Assembly: GCA_016794585.1 (NCBI GenBank)
Contig: JAEUJM010000001.1
Coordinates: 124,001 to 188,000 of the forward strand
Direction of reading: 5' to 3'
Length of the DNA stretch: 64,000 nt
Origin: Acidimicrobiales bacterium
GTDB lineage: Bacteria > Actinomycetota > Acidimicrobiia > Acidimicrobiales > DATDAH01
The position numbers were made by a program, and so were the translations under genes. Below, piece after piece: positions 26,986 through 34,335 of the stretch. The notes beneath the pieces were generated by a model that was not told the DNA's origin, did no database searches, and saw only the letters and a list, made by a program, of their open reading frames with translations. Positions within the stretch are counted from its first letter, which is position 1. Each line of letters begins with the position of its first letter.

Positions 26986-28071
26986 ATGGCCCATGGCGCG
27001 CGCCGCTGGAGTGTGATGGCGCTCGCCGTCGCGCTCGTGGCCGCCGCGGGGTGCTCGGCGGACAGCGGCCGGGACATCGAGGCCCTCGAGAACCCCACGC
27101 GCACGACGATGGAGCCGTACGTCGAGCCACAGTTCGACGACACCCGCGACGTGACCCTCGCCCCCGTGCCGCCGGGCGCCCCCCTGGCCTTCCCGGTCAC
27201 CATCCGTGGCGGGGACGCGTCCCTGACCGGCACCCTCGTCGGCCCGGACGGGCCGGTGGCCCGGGGACGGATCCGCCTGGAGCGCTTCGTGGGGGAGGCC
27301 TCGGCCGTGCTGGAGGTGGCCACGAACGAGCAGGGCCGATGGAACGCCAAGGGGATCATCGGCGGCCGTTACCGCGTGCGCGGCTGGCGCATGCCCGACC
27401 TCGCCATGAACTCGTCCACCGTGCTGTTCCTCGGAGCCGAGGAAGCCGGCACCGTCGACCTCGAGGCCACGGCCCAGGGCGGCGTGGACGTGCAGGCCGC
27501 GATCCTGACGCCGACGCCCACCATCGGCGCCGCGGTCAACGTCACGGCCCTCATCACCCGCCACGAGGTGGACGGCGACGGGGTGGTCCGAGGCATCCCC
27601 CTCACCGGCACGGTCGCCGCCCTGACGTCGGGCGCGGGCTGGGAGATCGCCGCCCCGGACGTCAGCGTCGACGGCGCCGGCGGCGCCACCTGGACCGTCA
27701 CCTGCACGGCCCCGTCGCCGGGCGACCTCGTGATCACCGCCGGTGAGGGGGTGGCCCGGATCACGGTGCCGGCGTGCTCGCGCCCGGTGGGCCCGACCAC
27801 GTCGACCACCGCGCCCGACACCCCGGTGGCCGACTTCGCCGTCGGCGAGCAGTTCACGCCGCCCTTCGCCGGGCCCCTCCCGGCCGGCACCTACACCGTC
27901 GTGGGCGACGCCGCCTCGTGCGCCCTCGTCTACGAGGTCTGGGAGGACGACGCCTGGAGCGACGACCAGCGCACGTTCACCGGTACCGGCGCGCTGGTGC
28001 TCGACACCTTCGCCCGCAACCTCGTCACCCTGGGTGACGCCCCGGCGTGCACGTTCGAGCGGGTGTCGTGA
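26986..28071 (+). CDS. Lipoprotein, first gene of the PBP operon
   Basis: Exported lipoprotein of 361 aa with lipid Cys at 23 (AAAGC). A carboxypeptidase-regulatory-like or bacterial-Ig-like beta domain covers about 65-155 (TLVGPDGPVARGRIRLERF...NEQGRWNAKGIIGGRYRVRGW); a second Ig-like region with a Cys pair lies near 225-265, followed by a Thr/Pro linker and a small C-terminal domain with two Cys. No enzyme motif. ATG 26986 is chosen for the signal peptide; no good Shine-Dalgarno. Its TGA overlaps the PBP start (TGATG), so it likely assists wall synthesis. Confidence 0.8.
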   Translation: MAHGARRWSVMALAVALVAAAGCSADSGRDIEALENPTRTTMEPYVEPQFDDTRDVTLAPVPPGAPLAFPVTIRGGDASLTGTLVGPDGPVARGRIRLERFVGEASAVLEVATNEQGRWNAKGIIGGRYRVRGWRMPDLAMNSSTVLFLGAEEAGTVDLEATAQGGVDVQAAILTPTPTIGAAVNVTALITRHEVDGDGVVRGIPLTGTVAALTSGAGWEIAAPDVSVDGAGGATWTVTCTAPSPGDLVITAGEGVARITVPACSRPVGPTTSTTAPDTPVADFAVGEQFTPPFAGPLPAGTYTVVGDAASCALVYEVWEDDAWSDDQRTFTGTGALVLDTFARNLVTLGDAPACTFERVS

Positions 28072-30215
28072 TGGCCCGCCGAGCCGACCGCATCGCCCCG
28101 TTCCCACCCCCGAAGCGCCGCCGGCGCTGGTGGGGCATCCCCCGCATGACCGTGAAGATGGTGGTGCTGGTCGCCGTGGTGGTGGGCGTCTGCGTGCCCG
28201 CGGCGGCGGCGACGGCCTTCTGGACCCTCATCAAGGCCGACGTGCCCGGCACCCTGCCGACCGACCGCAACCCCCGCGTGCGGTCGATGCCCACCACGGT
28301 CTACGACGCGGCTGGCAACCCCATCACCCAGTTCCGCGAGTTCGAGCTGACGGTCCCGACCCGGCCCGAAGACATCCCCCAGGTGTTGAAGGACGCCGTG
28401 GTGGCGGTCGAGGACCAGAACTTCTGGGAGCACGACGGCGTCGATCCCGAGGCCATCGTGCGCGCCGCCCTGAGCAACTTCGAGGAGGGCGACACCGTCC
28501 AGGGCGGCTCCACCATCACCCAGCAGTACGTGAAGAACACCTACACGACCGGTGAGCGAAACCTGAGCCGCAAGCTCCGCGAGGCACTGCTGGCCAGCCG
28601 TCTCGAGCGGGAGATCACCAAGGAGCAGATCCTCTTCCGCTACCTCACCAGCATCTACTTCGGCGACGGCGCCTACGGGGTGGGTGCTGCGGCCGAGTCC
28701 TACTTCCGCAAGCCGCTGTCCGAGCTGACCGCCTCCGAGGCCGCCATGCTCGCGGGCACCATCGCCTCGCCCAACAACTACGGGCCCCGGGGCAACGCCG
28801 AGGTGGCGGAGACCCGCCGCATCCAGTCGCTGCGGGCCATGCGGGACCAGGGCTACCTGACCCTCACCGAGTTCCGGGCCGCCCGCGACGAGCACATCTG
28901 GTACGCCCCCTTCGGCGACCCGCCCGGGCCCGCGACCGTCGTCCACGCGCCGCCGCAGAACGACGTGGCCACCGTCCACCCGTACTTCGTGGACTACGTG
29001 CGGCGCTTCCTGCTCGCCCGCTTCGACCACGAGTCCCTCTACCGAGGCGGCCTGCGGGTGGAGACCACCCTCGACCCGAGGCTCCAGCTGCTGGCCCAGC
29101 AGTCGGTCAGCCGCACCCTCGACGGCACCGCGCCGCCGCTCGAGATGTCGCTCGTCACCGTCGACCCCGCCACCGGCCACGTGAAGGCCATGGTGGGCGG
29201 CCGGGACTTCGCCCAGAGCCAGGTGAACCTCGCCCTCGGCGGCACCCTGGGGGTGCAGCCGGGGTCGTCGTTCAAGGCCTTCGTGCTGGCCTCGGCGTTC
29301 GAGCGGGGCATCACCCCCGAGGACCGCTACCCGGCCCCGGCGTCGATCACGCTGCCCGACTGCACCGGCCAGTGCACGATCTCCAACGCCGAGGCGGGCA
29401 ACGGAGGCGAGGAGGATCTGCGCCAGGCCACCGCCCACTCGGTGAACACCGTGTTCGCGCAGCTCATCCAGGACGTCGGCCCGCAGAACGTCGCCGAGCT
29501 GGCCCACCGTCTCGGCGTCCGCTCGATCGACCCCGAGACCACCCAGTACGGGGTGTCGCTCGCCCTCGGGGCCTACGAGACCTCCCCGCTGGAGATGGCG
29601 GCCGGCTACGCCGTGCTCGCCAACCACGGCGTGCGGGCTCCCGCCACCCCCATCCTGCGCGTGCTCGACCACGAGGGTCGGGTCCTCATGGACAACACCG
29701 CCCCGCAGGGCGAGCAGGTGCTCGACCCGGCCGTGGCCGACACGGTCACCAGCCTGCTCGGAGGGGTCATCTCGAGCGGCACGGGCCGTGCTGCGGACAT
29801 CGGTCGGCCGGCGGCGGGCAAGACCGGCACCGCCCAGGAGCACCGCGCCGCCTGGTTCGTGGGGTACACGCCGCAGCTCTCGACCGCGGTGTGGATGGGC
29901 TACTCGGACGTGCCCCGCCCGCTCTACGGCATCAAGGGCGCGTCCCGCGTCTTCGGAGGCGGCTTCCCCGCAGAGACGTGGGCCGACTTCATGCGCAACG
30001 CCCTCGCCGACCAACCGGTGCTGGGCTTCCCCGTGCCGGGCCCGCTGCCCACGCCCGTGGCCCAGACGCCGGCTCCTGCTCCGGCCGCCACCCCGGGCGC
30101 ACCGCCGACCACCGTGCCCTTCGAGCCGGAGCCCCTGGCGCCCATGACCCCGGGGCAGGTGGCCACCGACTGCGGCGGGCCCTGTGATCAGACACCGACC
30201 CTGGGGGACCCATGA
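28071..30215 (+). CDS. Class A penicillin-binding protein
   Basis: Bifunctional peptidoglycan synthase of 714 aa. A short cytosolic basic start, a membrane anchor about 27-50, a GT51 glycosyltransferase domain (VEDQNFWEHDGVD, GGSTITQQYVKN, EILFRYLTSIYFG-type and PNNYGPRGN motifs) and a transpeptidase domain with SSFK, SVN and KTGTA motifs, all intact. A Pro-rich tail ends with two Cys. The start is coupled to the preceding lipoprotein (TGATG) and the stop to the following pseudoprotease (ATGA), so the three proteins are probably made together. Confidence 0.95.
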   Translation: MARRADRIAPFPPPKRRRRWWGIPRMTVKMVVLVAVVVGVCVPAAAATAFWTLIKADVPGTLPTDRNPRVRSMPTTVYDAAGNPITQFREFELTVPTRPEDIPQVLKDAVVAVEDQNFWEHDGVDPEAIVRAALSNFEEGDTVQGGSTITQQYVKNTYTTGERNLSRKLREALLASRLEREITKEQILFRYLTSIYFGDGAYGVGAAAESYFRKPLSELTASEAAMLAGTIASPNNYGPRGNAEVAETRRIQSLRAMRDQGYLTLTEFRAARDEHIWYAPFGDPPGPATVVHAPPQNDVATVHPYFVDYVRRFLLARFDHESLYRGGLRVETTLDPRLQLLAQQSVSRTLDGTAPPLEMSLVTVDPATGHVKAMVGGRDFAQSQVNLALGGTLGVQPGSSFKAFVLASAFERGITPEDRYPAPASITLPDCTGQCTISNAEAGNGGEEDLRQATAHSVNTVFAQLIQDVGPQNVAELAHRLGVRSIDPETTQYGVSLALGAYETSPLEMAAGYAVLANHGVRAPATPILRVLDHEGRVLMDNTAPQGEQVLDPAVADTVTSLLGGVISSGTGRAADIGRPAAGKTGTAQEHRAAWFVGYTPQLSTAVWMGYSDVPRPLYGIKGASRVFGGGFPAETWADFMRNALADQPVLGFPVPGPLPTPVAQTPAPAPAATPGAPPTTVPFEPEPLAPMTPGQVATDCGGPCDQTPTLGDP

Positions 30216-31600
30216 CGCCACCGGACCCACCTCTTGCTCAGGCGCCCGGCGCAACAGCCGATGAGAACACCATGATCGACCGCGCCGCCCACGCGGAGAC
30301 CCGTCGACTGCACCGCGAGCTGCGTTCGCCGCTGCCGGACGACGAGGTGGACGTCGGCGTTGATCACGTCGACGAGCTGCGCCAGCTCTGGGACGGGCTC
30401 GTGGCCGAGAGCATGCCCGTCGAGCCCGTGGTGCCGCCCCTCCCGCCGGCGCCCGTCGCCGACGTCGTGGCGCCGGCGTGGCCCGCGGTGGCGCCACGCG
30501 TGCACACCGGCCCCGCCGGTCCGACCCCCCTCACGACCCCCCTCACCGATCCCCTGATCGTCCTCCCCGATGCCCGCACCGCCCCCGGGGCGCCGGTGCC
30601 GCCCGTTCCCCCGATCGCCCCCGCCGCGCCGGTGGCGGCCCCGGTCGTCGAGTCACCGAGCACCGAGCGCCCGTCCCGCCGCGAGCGTCGGGCCGCCAAG
30701 CGCCTCGCCAAGGACGAGAAGCGAGGCGCCCGCCTCGAGCTCCGCCGCCACCGCATCCTGCCCCGCACCGTGATCGGCATCTCGATGCTGTTGCTGGCGG
30801 CGGCCATCGGTGCGGCCTTCGCCGGGGCGATGCTCTACGCCTATTACGACTGGCGTCTGTCCACGAACGAAGACCGCGTCGGCGTGCTGGCCGAGAGCCT
30901 TCAGCAGCGCCTCACCGACGCCGGCGCCTCGATCGACGAGGCCCAGCAGCAGGCCCTCACCGAGCTCCAGGAACGGGCCGGGCCGCTGATCGACCAGAAG
31001 AGCGACGCCGTCGCCATGGCCGACCTCACCCCCGTGGTGCTGCCCTCCACCTTCTTCGTGTCCACCCTCGACGAGAACGGCCAGCCCTCGGTGGGCACGG
31101 CCTTCGTGGTCTCGTCCGACGACAGCCAGTCCCTGCTCGTCACCTCCTACCGGGTGGTGTCCGCATCGACCACCCAACCCGGCCCCGAGATCCGACTCAC
31201 CAACGCCGGCGGCGAGGCCGTGGTCGCCCAGCTCCACAGTTGGGACCCCGCGCACGACCTCGCCCTGCTGAGCCTCGACCGGGGTGGCCTGGAGCCGCTG
31301 ATCTGGGCGACGGGCGACGCCGCCGCCGTGACCGGCGAGCGGGTCTACGCCGCCAGCGGCGTGGGCGCGGCCGGCGTCACCTTCAGTCCGGGCATGGTCC
31401 TCGGCCAGAGCGCCGAGGGCATCCAGATGACCACGCCGGTGGGCAGCGCATGGCAGGGCGGGCCGGTCGTGACCCAGGACGGCAAGGTGGTGGCGGTGGC
31501 GTCACTCGCCTACCAGCCCCTCGGCTTCAACCCCGGCCAGGTGCCGTACGCGCCCCCGGTCGACGCCGCCTGCGAGACGCTCCTCGACTGCGGCGCCTGA
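30212..31600 (+). CDS. Membrane-anchored trypsin-fold pseudoprotease
   Basis: Predicted 462 aa protein. A long Pro/Ala-rich cytosolic part with a basic stretch (about 150-185), one membrane helix (about 189-212), a coiled stretch, then an extracellular trypsin-like domain from about 270. The fold is shown by VGTAFVVSSDD, LLVTSYRVVSAS, HSWDPAHDLALLSL and SAWQGGPVVTQDGKVVAV. At the place of the catalytic His (TxAHVV) the sequence reads SYRVV, and in place of GNSGGP it reads AWQGGP; only the Asp remains. It is therefore probably inactive as a protease and may sense or bind wall components. ATGA overlap with the PBP gene indicates linked function. Confidence 0.85.
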   Translation: MTPPDPPLAQAPGATADENTMIDRAAHAETRRLHRELRSPLPDDEVDVGVDHVDELRQLWDGLVAESMPVEPVVPPLPPAPVADVVAPAWPAVAPRVHTGPAGPTPLTTPLTDPLIVLPDARTAPGAPVPPVPPIAPAAPVAAPVVESPSTERPSRRERRAAKRLAKDEKRGARLELRRHRILPRTVIGISMLLLAAAIGAAFAGAMLYAYYDWRLSTNEDRVGVLAESLQQRLTDAGASIDEAQQQALTELQERAGPLIDQKSDAVAMADLTPVVLPSTFFVSTLDENGQPSVGTAFVVSSDDSQSLLVTSYRVVSASTTQPGPEIRLTNAGGEAVVAQLHSWDPAHDLALLSLDRGGLEPLIWATGDAAAVTGERVYAASGVGAAGVTFSPGMVLGQSAEGIQMTTPVGSAWQGGPVVTQDGKVVAVASLAYQPLGFNPGQVPYAPPVDAACETLLDCGA

Positions 31601-31742: not shown

Positions 31743-32891
31743 TCAGGGTGCGATCGTGGTCGGGGTGACGGCTGGGGCGACCGTGGTGGGCGTCGGGGCG
31801 CCGTTGGGGAGGTCTTCTTCGATCGCCGCGAAGATCGCGTCGGCGGCACGGTCGCCACCGGCGCGGGTCATGTGGATGCCGTCGCTGTTGCGCATGTTGA
31901 CGACCTCGCCGCCGGCGCCGGGCAGGTAGTCGGAGTAGTTGCCGTTCTCGTCGGCGAACAGGTCGTAGAGCGACACGATGGTGGTGTTGGGGTGGTCGGC
32001 GGCCACCTCCTCGAAGATGCCGTTCATGAGCTGGAGCCGGGCCGAGTACTCGCCGTCGCGGGCGATGGGCTGACCGATCCAGTAGACCCGCACGCCCTGT
32101 TGCTCGAGGTAGGTCATGACCGCGTCCACCCGGCGGGCGTACTCGGCGTTCCACTCGGGGTCGCCCGGCTGGAACACGCCGGTGTCGAGCTCCATGCCCT
32201 GGCCGTCGTTGGCCCCGAACACCACGACCATGGCGTCCGGGTCGGTGGTCTCGACCACCTGTTGGATCTCGGCCGGCCAGTTGAAGAAGTCGGGTCGCGT
32301 GAGCCCGCTCGAGAACTCGAAGTCGAGGGTGGCGTCCATCACCCCGGTGGCGGCGGCCTTGTCGATCACGGACTGACCCAGGATCTCGGCTTGCGAGTCG
32401 CCCACGACCACGATCTCGAGGGGGTCCGCCGCCGTGGGCTCGGGCAGCTCGGTGGCCGGGGGAGCGGCGGGCGGCTCGGCGGTGGTGAGGTCGTCGAAGG
32501 CCTCGGCGTCGCCGAACTCGTGGCCGAGGGCGTCGTCGGCGGTGGTGCGGGGGCGGTCGAGGAAGAGCAGGTGGCTCAGGCCGTCGATGGGCTTCACCAG
32601 GGCCACCTGGACCGAGCGCTGCCAGCCGAAGGGCTGACGCTCGACGATGCGCAGCAGGCTCGAAGCGTTCATGAGCGTGAACAGCCCGAGGGCCACGACC
32701 CCGACGATGGTGACCTGGCGCAGGTCGAGGGTGCGGGCCGGCGGCGCCAGAGGTGGTGTGAAGCGACCGTGGTCGCCGGGGTCCATGGCGTCGAGGCGGT
32801 CGAGGGCCCGCTGGGTCCGCGGGCCCGGCTCCTCGCTGCCGGGCCGGGCTGCGCCGGGGGAGTGGGGGTCGGGGGTGTGGTGGTCGGGCAT
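31743..32891 (-). CDS. SGNH-hydrolase-fold protein (DUF459-like), membrane anchored
   Basis: Predicted 382 aa protein with a cytosolic start, a membrane helix about 59-80 and an external SGNH domain: VVVGDSQAE (nucleophile Ser block), VFGANDGQ (Gly-x-Asn) and SDGIHMTRAGGD (Asp-x-x-His). Such proteins transfer or remove O-acyl groups on cell-surface polymers. It lies four nt after the MBOAT gene in the same direction; the pair matches the MBOAT-plus-SGNH arrangement of alginate, peptidoglycan and teichoic-acid acylation systems. A Thr/Pro-rich tail ends the protein. The target polymer is unknown. Confidence 0.87.
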   Translation of the reverse strand: MPDHHTPDPHSPGAARPGSEEPGPRTQRALDRLDAMDPGDHGRFTPPLAPPARTLDLRQVTIVGVVALGLFTLMNASSLLRIVERQPFGWQRSVQVALVKPIDGLSHLLFLDRPRTTADDALGHEFGDAEAFDDLTTAEPPAAPPATELPEPTAADPLEIVVVGDSQAEILGQSVIDKAAATGVMDATLDFEFSSGLTRPDFFNWPAEIQQVVETTDPDAMVVVFGANDGQGMELDTGVFQPGDPEWNAEYARRVDAVMTYLEQQGVRVYWIGQPIARDGEYSARLQLMNGIFEEVAADHPNTTIVSLYDLFADENGNYSDYLPGAGGEVVNMRNSDGIHMTRAGGDRAADAIFAAIEEDLPNGAPTPTTVAPAVTPTTIAP

Positions 32892-32895
32892 CGGA

Positions 32896-34335
32896 TCAGA
32901 ACTGGAAGTAGATGAACGGGGCCACGCCGACGGGGCCCAGGGTGTCGATGAGCACGAAGCTGAGGGCCAGGGCCACCCCCTGGAGCACCGGAGCCAGGCG
33001 GGAGAACCCGGACTTGCTCCAGGCGCCGACCCAGCGGGGGGAGAACTGCGCCGCCAACATCCCTACCACCACGGCGACGAGCAGCAGGGTCGGCCCCGGC
33101 AGCAGGTCGGTGACGTCGAAGATCCCCTTGATGACGTCGAACGCCGTCGCGAACGACTCGGCCCGGAAGAAGATCCAGGCGAAGCACACGAGGTTGAAGG
33201 TGGCGAGCCACGCCAACACGGGCCGCAGGGCCTCGGGGATGACCGAGGGCGCCAGCGTCCCGGCCTCCTCCTGCGCCGCCCGCCGGCCATTGCGCCAATG
33301 GCCGACGCATTGGTAGGTGCCGTGCAGGCCGCCCCACACCACGAAGGTCCACGAGGCGCCGTGCCACAGGCCGCCGAGCAGCATGGTCAGCATGAGGTTG
33401 CGGTAGGTGGCGGACTCGGAGCCCCGGCTCCCGCCGAGGGGGATGTAGAGGTAGTCCCGCAGCCAGCGCGACAGCGTGATGTGCCAGCGCCGCCAGAAGT
33501 CCTGGATGGAGAGGGCCGAGTACGGACGGTCGAAGTTCTGCGGGAAGCGGATGCCGAGCAGCAGGGCGATGCCGATGGCGATGTCGGTGTAGCCGCTGAA
33601 GTCGGCGTAGATCTGCATCGCGTAGCCGTAGACCGCGAAGAGGATCTCGAGGCTCGAGAAGTTGCCGGGCACGGCGAAGACGGGGTCGACCACCTCGGTG
33701 CCGAGCCAGCTCGCGATCACGACCTTCTTGAAGAGGCCGGCGACGATGAGGAAGAAGGCCTCGGTGGCGGGGATGCGGTGCTCGTCGGGGCGCCGGCGCA
33801 GCTGGGGGACGAACTCGCTGGCCCGCACGATGGGCCCCGCCACCAGGTGGGGGAAGAACGACAGGTACATGCCGAACTCGATGGGCGAGGCCGGCTCGAG
33901 CTCGCGGCGGTAGATGTCGACCACGTAGCTGATGGCCTGGAAGGTGAAGAACGAGATCCCGATGGGCAGGATCAGCCGCAGCAGCGGGGGGTTGGCGTCG
34001 AGGCCCAGCTTCGCCAGCCCGTTGGTGACCGAGACGACGAAGAACTCGTAGTACTTGAAGAACCCGAGCACGACGAGGTTGCCGCTCACCGCCAGCCCCA
34101 TCAGCAGCTTGCGGGTGCCATCGTCGTGGTTGCGGTGGATGGCCGTCCCCATGGCCTGGTTGAACAGCGTCGACCCGGCGATGAGCAGCACGAAGCGCCA
34201 GTCCCACCAGCCGTAGAAGACGTAGCTGGCCGCCAGGGTGAACGCCATCCAGGCGCGCCGGTTGGGGCGCAGGCGCCAGCTCACCAGGAACACGATGATG
34301 AAGAAGATCCCGAACTGGGCCGTCGGGAAGAGCAT
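32896..34335 (-). CDS. MBOAT-family O-acyltransferase
   Basis: Integral membrane protein of 479 aa with about ten hydrophobic segments. Seen: VLGFFKYYEFF and LPIGISFFTFQAISYVVDIYR, the SFFPHLVAGPIVR motif, QDFWRRWHITLSRWLRDYLYIPLGG and the active-site region MLLGGLWHGASWTFVVWG with its His. These mark AlgI/DltB-type transferases, which pass acyl groups across the membrane. With the SGNH protein downstream it forms a two-gene acylation cassette. TAGTCT at 34368-34373 (minus) is a possible -10 box, and GAGGAG lies about 12 nt before the ATG, so this gene has a leadered mRNA. Confidence 0.94.
   Translation of the reverse strand: MLFPTAQFGIFFIIVFLVSWRLRPNRRAWMAFTLAASYVFYGWWDWRFVLLIAGSTLFNQAMGTAIHRNHDDGTRKLLMGLAVSGNLVVLGFFKYYEFFVVSVTNGLAKLGLDANPPLLRLILPIGISFFTFQAISYVVDIYRRELEPASPIEFGMYLSFFPHLVAGPIVRASEFVPQLRRRPDEHRIPATEAFFLIVAGLFKKVVIASWLGTEVVDPVFAVPGNFSSLEILFAVYGYAMQIYADFSGYTDIAIGIALLLGIRFPQNFDRPYSALSIQDFWRRWHITLSRWLRDYLYIPLGGSRGSESATYRNLMLTMLLGGLWHGASWTFVVWGGLHGTYQCVGHWRNGRRAAQEEAGTLAPSVIPEALRPVLAWLATFNLVCFAWIFFRAESFATAFDVIKGIFDVTDLLPGPTLLLVAVVVGMLAAQFSPRWVGAWSKSGFSRLAPVLQGVALALSFVLIDTLGPVGVAPFIYFQF

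Follow-up and report, generated by a model that had tools for sequence, protein, structure and literature searches.

A degenerate HtrA-fold protein is co-inherited with one clade of class A penicillin-binding proteins and is probably its dedicated partner in a group of actinobacteria

In one group of actinobacteria a dead protease is always inherited together with a particular cell-wall synthase, and for this reason it is probably the dedicated helper of that enzyme. The dead protease is encoded by the third of three overlapping genes (26986-31600, forward strand) in a 64,000-nucleotide stretch of DNA from an Acidimicrobiales bacterium, which is called the window. The first gene encodes a lipoprotein, the second a class A penicillin-binding protein (PBP), and the third an HtrA-fold protein with one transmembrane (TM) helix. 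Judged from sequences and structure models, the third protein is a pseudoprotease; it would act as the dedicated membrane partner of a single subfamily of class A PBPs, and a probability of roughly two in three was assigned to this reading.

The features of the locus are compiled in Table 1. The original prediction had reported a TGATG and an ATGA overlap at the two gene junctions, and on rechecking the coordinates of both were correct. The translational coupling of three genes that had been proposed from them applies to the window, but not to the system as a whole, as it is restricted to the minority clade to which the window belongs. No structured RNA in the window matched Rfam. Convergent to the trio, on the reverse strand (31746-34335), genes for a DUF459/SGNH hydrolase and an MBOAT acyltransferase were found, which likely form an envelope O-acylation pair; no such pair adjoined the other colinear trios.

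Table 1. Features of the three-gene locus (positions in the window)
Feature	Position	Strand	Basis
Lipoprotein, 361 aa	26986..28071	+	ORF and lipobox
TGATG stop/start overlap, lipoprotein/PBP	28069..28073	+	Sequence; junction of -3 to +4 bases in 10/10 colinear loci checked
Class A PBP	28071..30215	+	Pfam, motifs, clade with SH-aLRT 99
ATGA start/stop overlap, PBP/pseudoprotease	30212..30215	+	Sequence; same in 4/10 colinear loci checked
Membrane-anchored HtrA-fold pseudoprotease, 462 aa	30212..31600	+	PF13365, family, structure, dN/dS
Predicted cytoplasmic N-terminal region, about 185 residues, Pro/Ala-rich, then strongly basic	30212..30766	+	Sequence
Single TM helix with small-xxx-small motif GAAFAG (family GAxxSG)	30767..30847	+	Column identity
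Predicted extracytoplasmic helical stalk, variable in sequence	30848..31048	+	Model helix 10-102
Trypsin-fold domain, without PDZ	31049..31597	+	Pfam, structure
His57 position: Arg (TSY[R]VV)	31151..31153	+	Alignment; His in 0/63 Acidimicrobiia members
Asp102 position: Asp (H[D]LALL)	31256..31258	+	Alignment; Asp in 63/63 Acidimicrobiia members
Positions 193-195: Ala-Trp-Gln replacing Gly-x-Ser (AW[Q]GGP); family usually Ala-Phe-Gln	31448..31456	+	

The second gene product was identified as a class A PBP by its Transgly (PF00912, E 2.3e-60) and Transpeptidase (PF00905, E 1.3e-31) domains in Pfam and by the motifs EDQNF, GGSTITQQ, SSFK, SVN and KTGT in its translation. The lipoprotein has the lipobox-like motif LVAAAGC with Cys23, which is followed by a low-complexity linker and several immunoglobulin-like/CNA-B-like beta domains. 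These were modelled by AlphaFold as beta-sandwich domains, and their best Foldseek matches (pilin, complement and DUF3823 domains) had low TM-scores and were generic and not discriminating; in Pfam, only PF13620 was retrieved, with an E value of 0.19. Homologues are located 5' of the PBP gene in colinear loci and also in L053/L200. The lipoprotein is an optional or accessory member that is kept in the colinear arrangement. L053/L200 represents the second of two pseudoprotease-PBP pairs in genome G020, and there the lipoprotein gene lies upstream of the PBP gene despite the convergent orientation of the pair.

The pseudoprotease gene was detected in 25 of 59 related genomes, and in 23 of these 25 a class A PBP gene was present at the same locus. 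A set of 43 named loci, nearly all from Acidimicrobiia or unplaced actinobacterial MAGs and including the isolate Acidiferrimicrobium sp. IK, whose locus L184 has the pair, contained the PBP in 39 cases; in two the contig ended first and in two the genes were truly apart, which leaves 39 of 41 testable loci, and such linkage percentages depend on fragmented MAGs. Two records named Acidobacteria or Acidobacteriota (L181, L193) have pseudoprotease-PBP loci of the Acidimicrobiia type and are probably misnamed or misbinned MAGs.

The PBPs that accompany the pseudoprotease are not a random selection of class A PBPs. When 89 class A PBPs were arranged in a tree, calculated like the other trees by quick maximum likelihood with SH-aLRT support and without bootstrap, all 33 linked PBPs, that of the window among them, fell together with two further sequences into a single clade (SH-aLRT 99). 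The two additional sequences, the only unlinked PBPs of the clade, came from G004 and G046, exactly the genomes that encode the pseudoprotease elsewhere. Outside the clade were the remaining class A PBPs encoded by these genomes as well as the class A PBPs from genomes devoid of the pseudoprotease, and a long-branch PBP paralogue of G057 was sister to it. A survey of 395 genomes of Acidimicrobiia, with thresholds of E < 1e-70 for the pseudoprotease and of at least 762 bits for the PBP clade (next score at most 649 bits), yielded the identical 18 genomes for both proteins (G000, G008, G010, G013, G016, G028, G039, G057, G090, G238, G252, G261, G300, G320, G348, G362, G364 and G409), which are related and do not amount to 18 independent events. 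The families f53, f17, f40 and f15 each comprised genomes with both proteins and genomes with neither. Thus, the pseudoprotease shows the co-inheritance with a cognate synthase that is expected of a class A PBP cofactor. Some genomes contain a second PBP of the clade and a single pseudoprotease. The co-inheritance would also agree with a shared process without contact of the two proteins.

The third protein belongs to the HtrA/Trypsin_2 family both by profile and by fold. Trypsin_2 (PF13365) matched residues 295-429 with 59.9 bits, compared with a curated cut-off of 27.6 bits, and an AlphaFold model (mean pLDDT 84) consisted of one long helix and a subsequent HtrA protease domain. With Foldseek and VIA-align this domain was found to resemble HtrA1, DegQ, DegS and Mycobacterium tuberculosis HtrA with Z values of about 24. 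A PDZ domain was not matched in Pfam at E values up to 1, and the protein stops directly after the trypsin domain. The positive-inside rule suggests that the N-terminus is located in the cytoplasm. Mean column identities were 0.54 for the TM helix, 0.53 for the protease domain and 0.33 for the stalk; Gly28 of the TM helix (model numbering) is invariant, and the G, A and G positions of the motif are invariant across classes as well. The trypsin-fold domain contains an invariant C-terminal Cys pair (C454/C460), which is common to the active relatives L054 and L055. For eleven close pairs dN/dS was 0.04-0.21, and the protein is therefore maintained under purifying selection and is not the product of a decaying gene.

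The shared fold would also allow another role, namely that of a non-catalytic subunit or decoy of active HtrA- or MarP-type envelope proteases, which would join protease oligomers or shield the PBP from them and would thereby affect it via turnover. Known HtrA members form trimers, and genes for active HtrA-like and MarP proteins are present in the same genomes. In addition, it has been shown for CofA that partners of class A PBPs can act through stability (PMC7205459). However, the pseudoprotease is linked to and co-inherited with one PBP clade, whereas MarP-type proteases occur in nearly all of these genomes, with or without the pair, and its TM helix is conserved as would be expected for a membrane partner, so that this role was regarded as unlikely.

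Two gene arrangements were observed. In the majority of the loci the pseudoprotease and PBP genes are convergent (tail to tail), with a median distance of 35 bases between the stop codons. The colinear order lipoprotein-PBP-pseudoprotease was found in a minority, i.e., in the window, in G010, G016, G039, G041, G090, G300, G348 and G362, and in two named loci. The three-gene order that was to be sought in other actinobacteria was thus recovered in this minority, but most relatives have the convergent arrangement, which does not form one operon. The neighbours of the convergent loci encode a histidine kinase, a metallo-beta-lactamase-fold protein and a NUDIX protein as well as SelA, SelB, WhiB and NfeD. 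On the far side of the convergent PBP gene, a selA-selB-(whiB)-nfeD block is present in Acidimicrobiia and likewise in a further class of actinobacteria (L086:11224-16173, L211:2555-7940). Around the colinear trio the neighbours of the convergent loci are absent, and the colinear loci grouped as a single clade whether the tree was built from PBPs or from pseudoproteases; therefore, PBP and pseudoprotease genes have moved together.

These observations bear on the idea that only a neighbourhood has been conserved, an old syntenic block of selA, selB, whiB, nfeD and NUDIX genes in which the two genes are not directly connected in function. Parts of the block do recur across classes. Yet PBP and pseudoprotease are still together in the colinear loci, from which the block is gone, G004 and G046 have kept both genes though they are apart, and across 395 genomes the two are either both found or both missing. 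The idea is thus largely contradicted and was considered very improbable. The tie to a class A PBP, which had been predicted from the gene overlaps, was strengthened well beyond the operon by the restriction to one PBP clade, the identical distribution in 395 genomes, the survival of the pair when it was moved to another locus, and its existence in other classes; the mechanism would be activation, placement or stabilisation.

It had further been predicted that the trypsin-fold domain lies outside the membrane and has lost its catalytic His and Ser. The HtrA domain was indeed modelled, with Arg in place of His and Gln in place of Ser. The sequence T-N-Y-H-V around the His of active HtrA-like proteins reads T-S-Y-R-V in the window, and G-N-S-G-G-P around the Ser reads A-W-Q-G-G-P; the same assignment was obtained independently when the protein was aligned by profile with a DegP-like chain of solved structure. 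The degeneracy extends over the whole family: among 64 distinct members from Acidimicrobiia the Ser position is occupied by Gln (50), Arg (8), Ala (4), Val (1) or Glu (1) and never by Ser, and His is likewise absent from its position (Table 1). Gly193 of the oxyanion hole is lost in 62 of the 64 members (Ala in the window), and position 194 is mostly Phe. The window protein therefore has neither the complete triad His57-Asp102-Ser195 nor the Gly193 that characterize active HtrA/S1C proteases. Chance does not explain the degeneracy, which is family-wide in a gene kept by purifying selection.

The rebuilt loop L1, Ala-Phe/Trp-Gln-Gly-Gly-Pro, is itself conserved, as might be expected if the fold had been repurposed to bind a ligand (a wall fragment, a metal or a lipid) and to report to the PBP or another envelope system. 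Among trypsin folds that have been repurposed, the closest precedent is MamO, a Trypsin_2/HtrA-type protein with a degenerate triad, a residue other than Gly at position 193, a bulky aromatic residue (Trp) in loop L1 and a non-catalytic task (PMC4794232). MamO is a metal-binding protein with a surface di-histidine site and a TauE transporter domain, acts in magnetite formation and has Thr at the nucleophile position; a TauE domain was not matched in the pseudoprotease in Pfam. An invariant metal-type cluster of His, Asp or Cys residues was not seen beyond the C-terminal Cys pair, which is shared by the active L054 and L055. As an explanation of its own, ligand binding was given very little weight, but it is compatible with a dedicated partner of the PBP and does not exclude it.

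A sample of the phylum yielded more distant members of the pseudoprotease family. The pair, in convergent orientation, recurs in two or more further classes of actinobacteria, and a convergent PBP was found in 14 of the fetched loci; for two f115 members no PBP match was obtained inside the fetched stretch. In a wider PBP tree all 47 linked PBPs were placed within one set of 50 entries (SH-aLRT 92). When two other classes were searched more closely, nearly all members turned out to be degenerate too. The pseudoprotease family forms a clade apart from triad-bearing HtrA-like proteins (SH-aLRT 98), and no PBP was detected near five such triad-bearing paralogues of Acidimicrobiia. One distant member, L205 (G597; L205:8001-8861), shows all three triad residues (His, Asp and Ser) at their sites but Arg at position 193, and its gene is convergent to one for a class A PBP; in the tree it branches from within the degenerate sequences, with the degenerate L216 as its neighbour. 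With respect to the predicted loss of activity, a homologue with an intact triad was thus encountered once, in a distant class and without Gly193, and not among the 64 members of Acidimicrobiia. That the family consists of active proteases with an unusual active site, or with a site completed by a partner, is hardly credible: L205, the retained Asp102 and a Ser kept at a 214-like position may be quoted in its favour, but none of the 64 members has His or Ser at the sites, Gly193 is lost in 62, the family alignment contains no other invariant His and no suitable Ser, the frequent QHD motif of the family is QMT in the window, and L205 itself has Arg at position 193.

For the preferred reading, a dedicated membrane partner of the PBP, the following course of events may be envisaged. 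Pseudoprotease and PBP would bind each other, with the small-xxx-small TM helix packing against the TM segment of the PBP and the adjoining glycosyltransferase domain. By means of the stalk, the pseudoprotease domain would be kept beside the catalytic domains of the PBP or beside the wall, and the cleft, non-catalytic without His57, Ser195 and Gly193, would bind a peptide or the surface of the PBP and leave it uncut. As with other cofactors of class A PBPs, the synthase could be activated, placed or stabilised in this way. In the clade of the window, the lipoprotein would be a third, translationally coupled member. The contact of the two proteins, with the helix binding the synthase and the dead domain binding a peptide or the synthase, is proposed because of the analogy with CofA and MacP. 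A more far-reaching version, that an old peptidoglycan-synthase module exists in several actinobacterial classes, in which the stalked dead HtrA domain, its helix packed on the synthase, reads wall peptides in what was once its active site and switches the class A PBP on or off, is a tentative suggestion with perhaps a slim chance of being correct.

CofA (DUF3566) is the cofactor of PBP1a in Corynebacterium glutamicum and binds through the TM helix of the PBP (PMC7205459). Like CofA, the pseudoprotease is a membrane protein of actinobacteria that would be devoted to a single class A PBP, and its TM helix is conserved. However, CofA has 114 amino acids, two TM helices, an N-in/C-in topology and a gyrase-side locus, whereas the pseudoprotease has one TM helix and an HtrA-fold domain and did not match DUF3566 in Pfam. 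Genes of the CofA type are separate in the genome of the window and track class A PBPs in general. A replacement of CofA by the pseudoprotease was ruled out, as CofA co-exists in most of these genomes. Within the 59 related genomes, those without any class A PBP tend to lack CofA as well, and G000 has three DUF3566 genes.

The pseudoprotease would also resemble MacP and the LpoA/LpoB proteins, the latter of Gram-negative bacteria, all of which are dedicated activators of single class A PBPs. MacP, LpoA and LpoB are not known to contain a protease fold. In Pfam the pseudoprotease did not match MacP, LpoA/LpoB or other cofactor families, which agrees with the earlier view that its fold is unlike those of known class A PBP partners, CofA included. 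MacP of Streptococcus pneumoniae is thought to act at the interface of TM segment and polymerase (PMC10746261). By analogy, the pseudoprotease would resemble the cofactors of class A PBPs in its way of working, but it fits no known cofactor family.

MarP (NF033740) of Mycobacterium tuberculosis activates RipA (PMC8565819) and is, like the pseudoprotease, a membrane-anchored trypsin-fold protein of the actinobacterial envelope with a tie to peptidoglycan; in contrast to the pseudoprotease, it is active. The pseudoprotease reached only 18.7 bits with the MarP family, for which the cut-off is 250 bits over 390 positions, and the genome of the window encodes a separate MarP-family protease with 303 bits (G000:C13:203753-204895). 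The possibility that the pseudoprotease is the MarP of a locus like mycobacterial ponA2-marP was ruled out by this score and by the separate MarP in most of the genomes.

A report on the pseudoprotease-PBP pair was not found among open-licence papers. Through their strict co-inheritance, the pseudoprotease and one clade of class A PBPs make up a defined pair that can be tested in a large section of the phylum that has received little study. Cell-wall synthesis would join the functions for which inactive protease folds have been reused.
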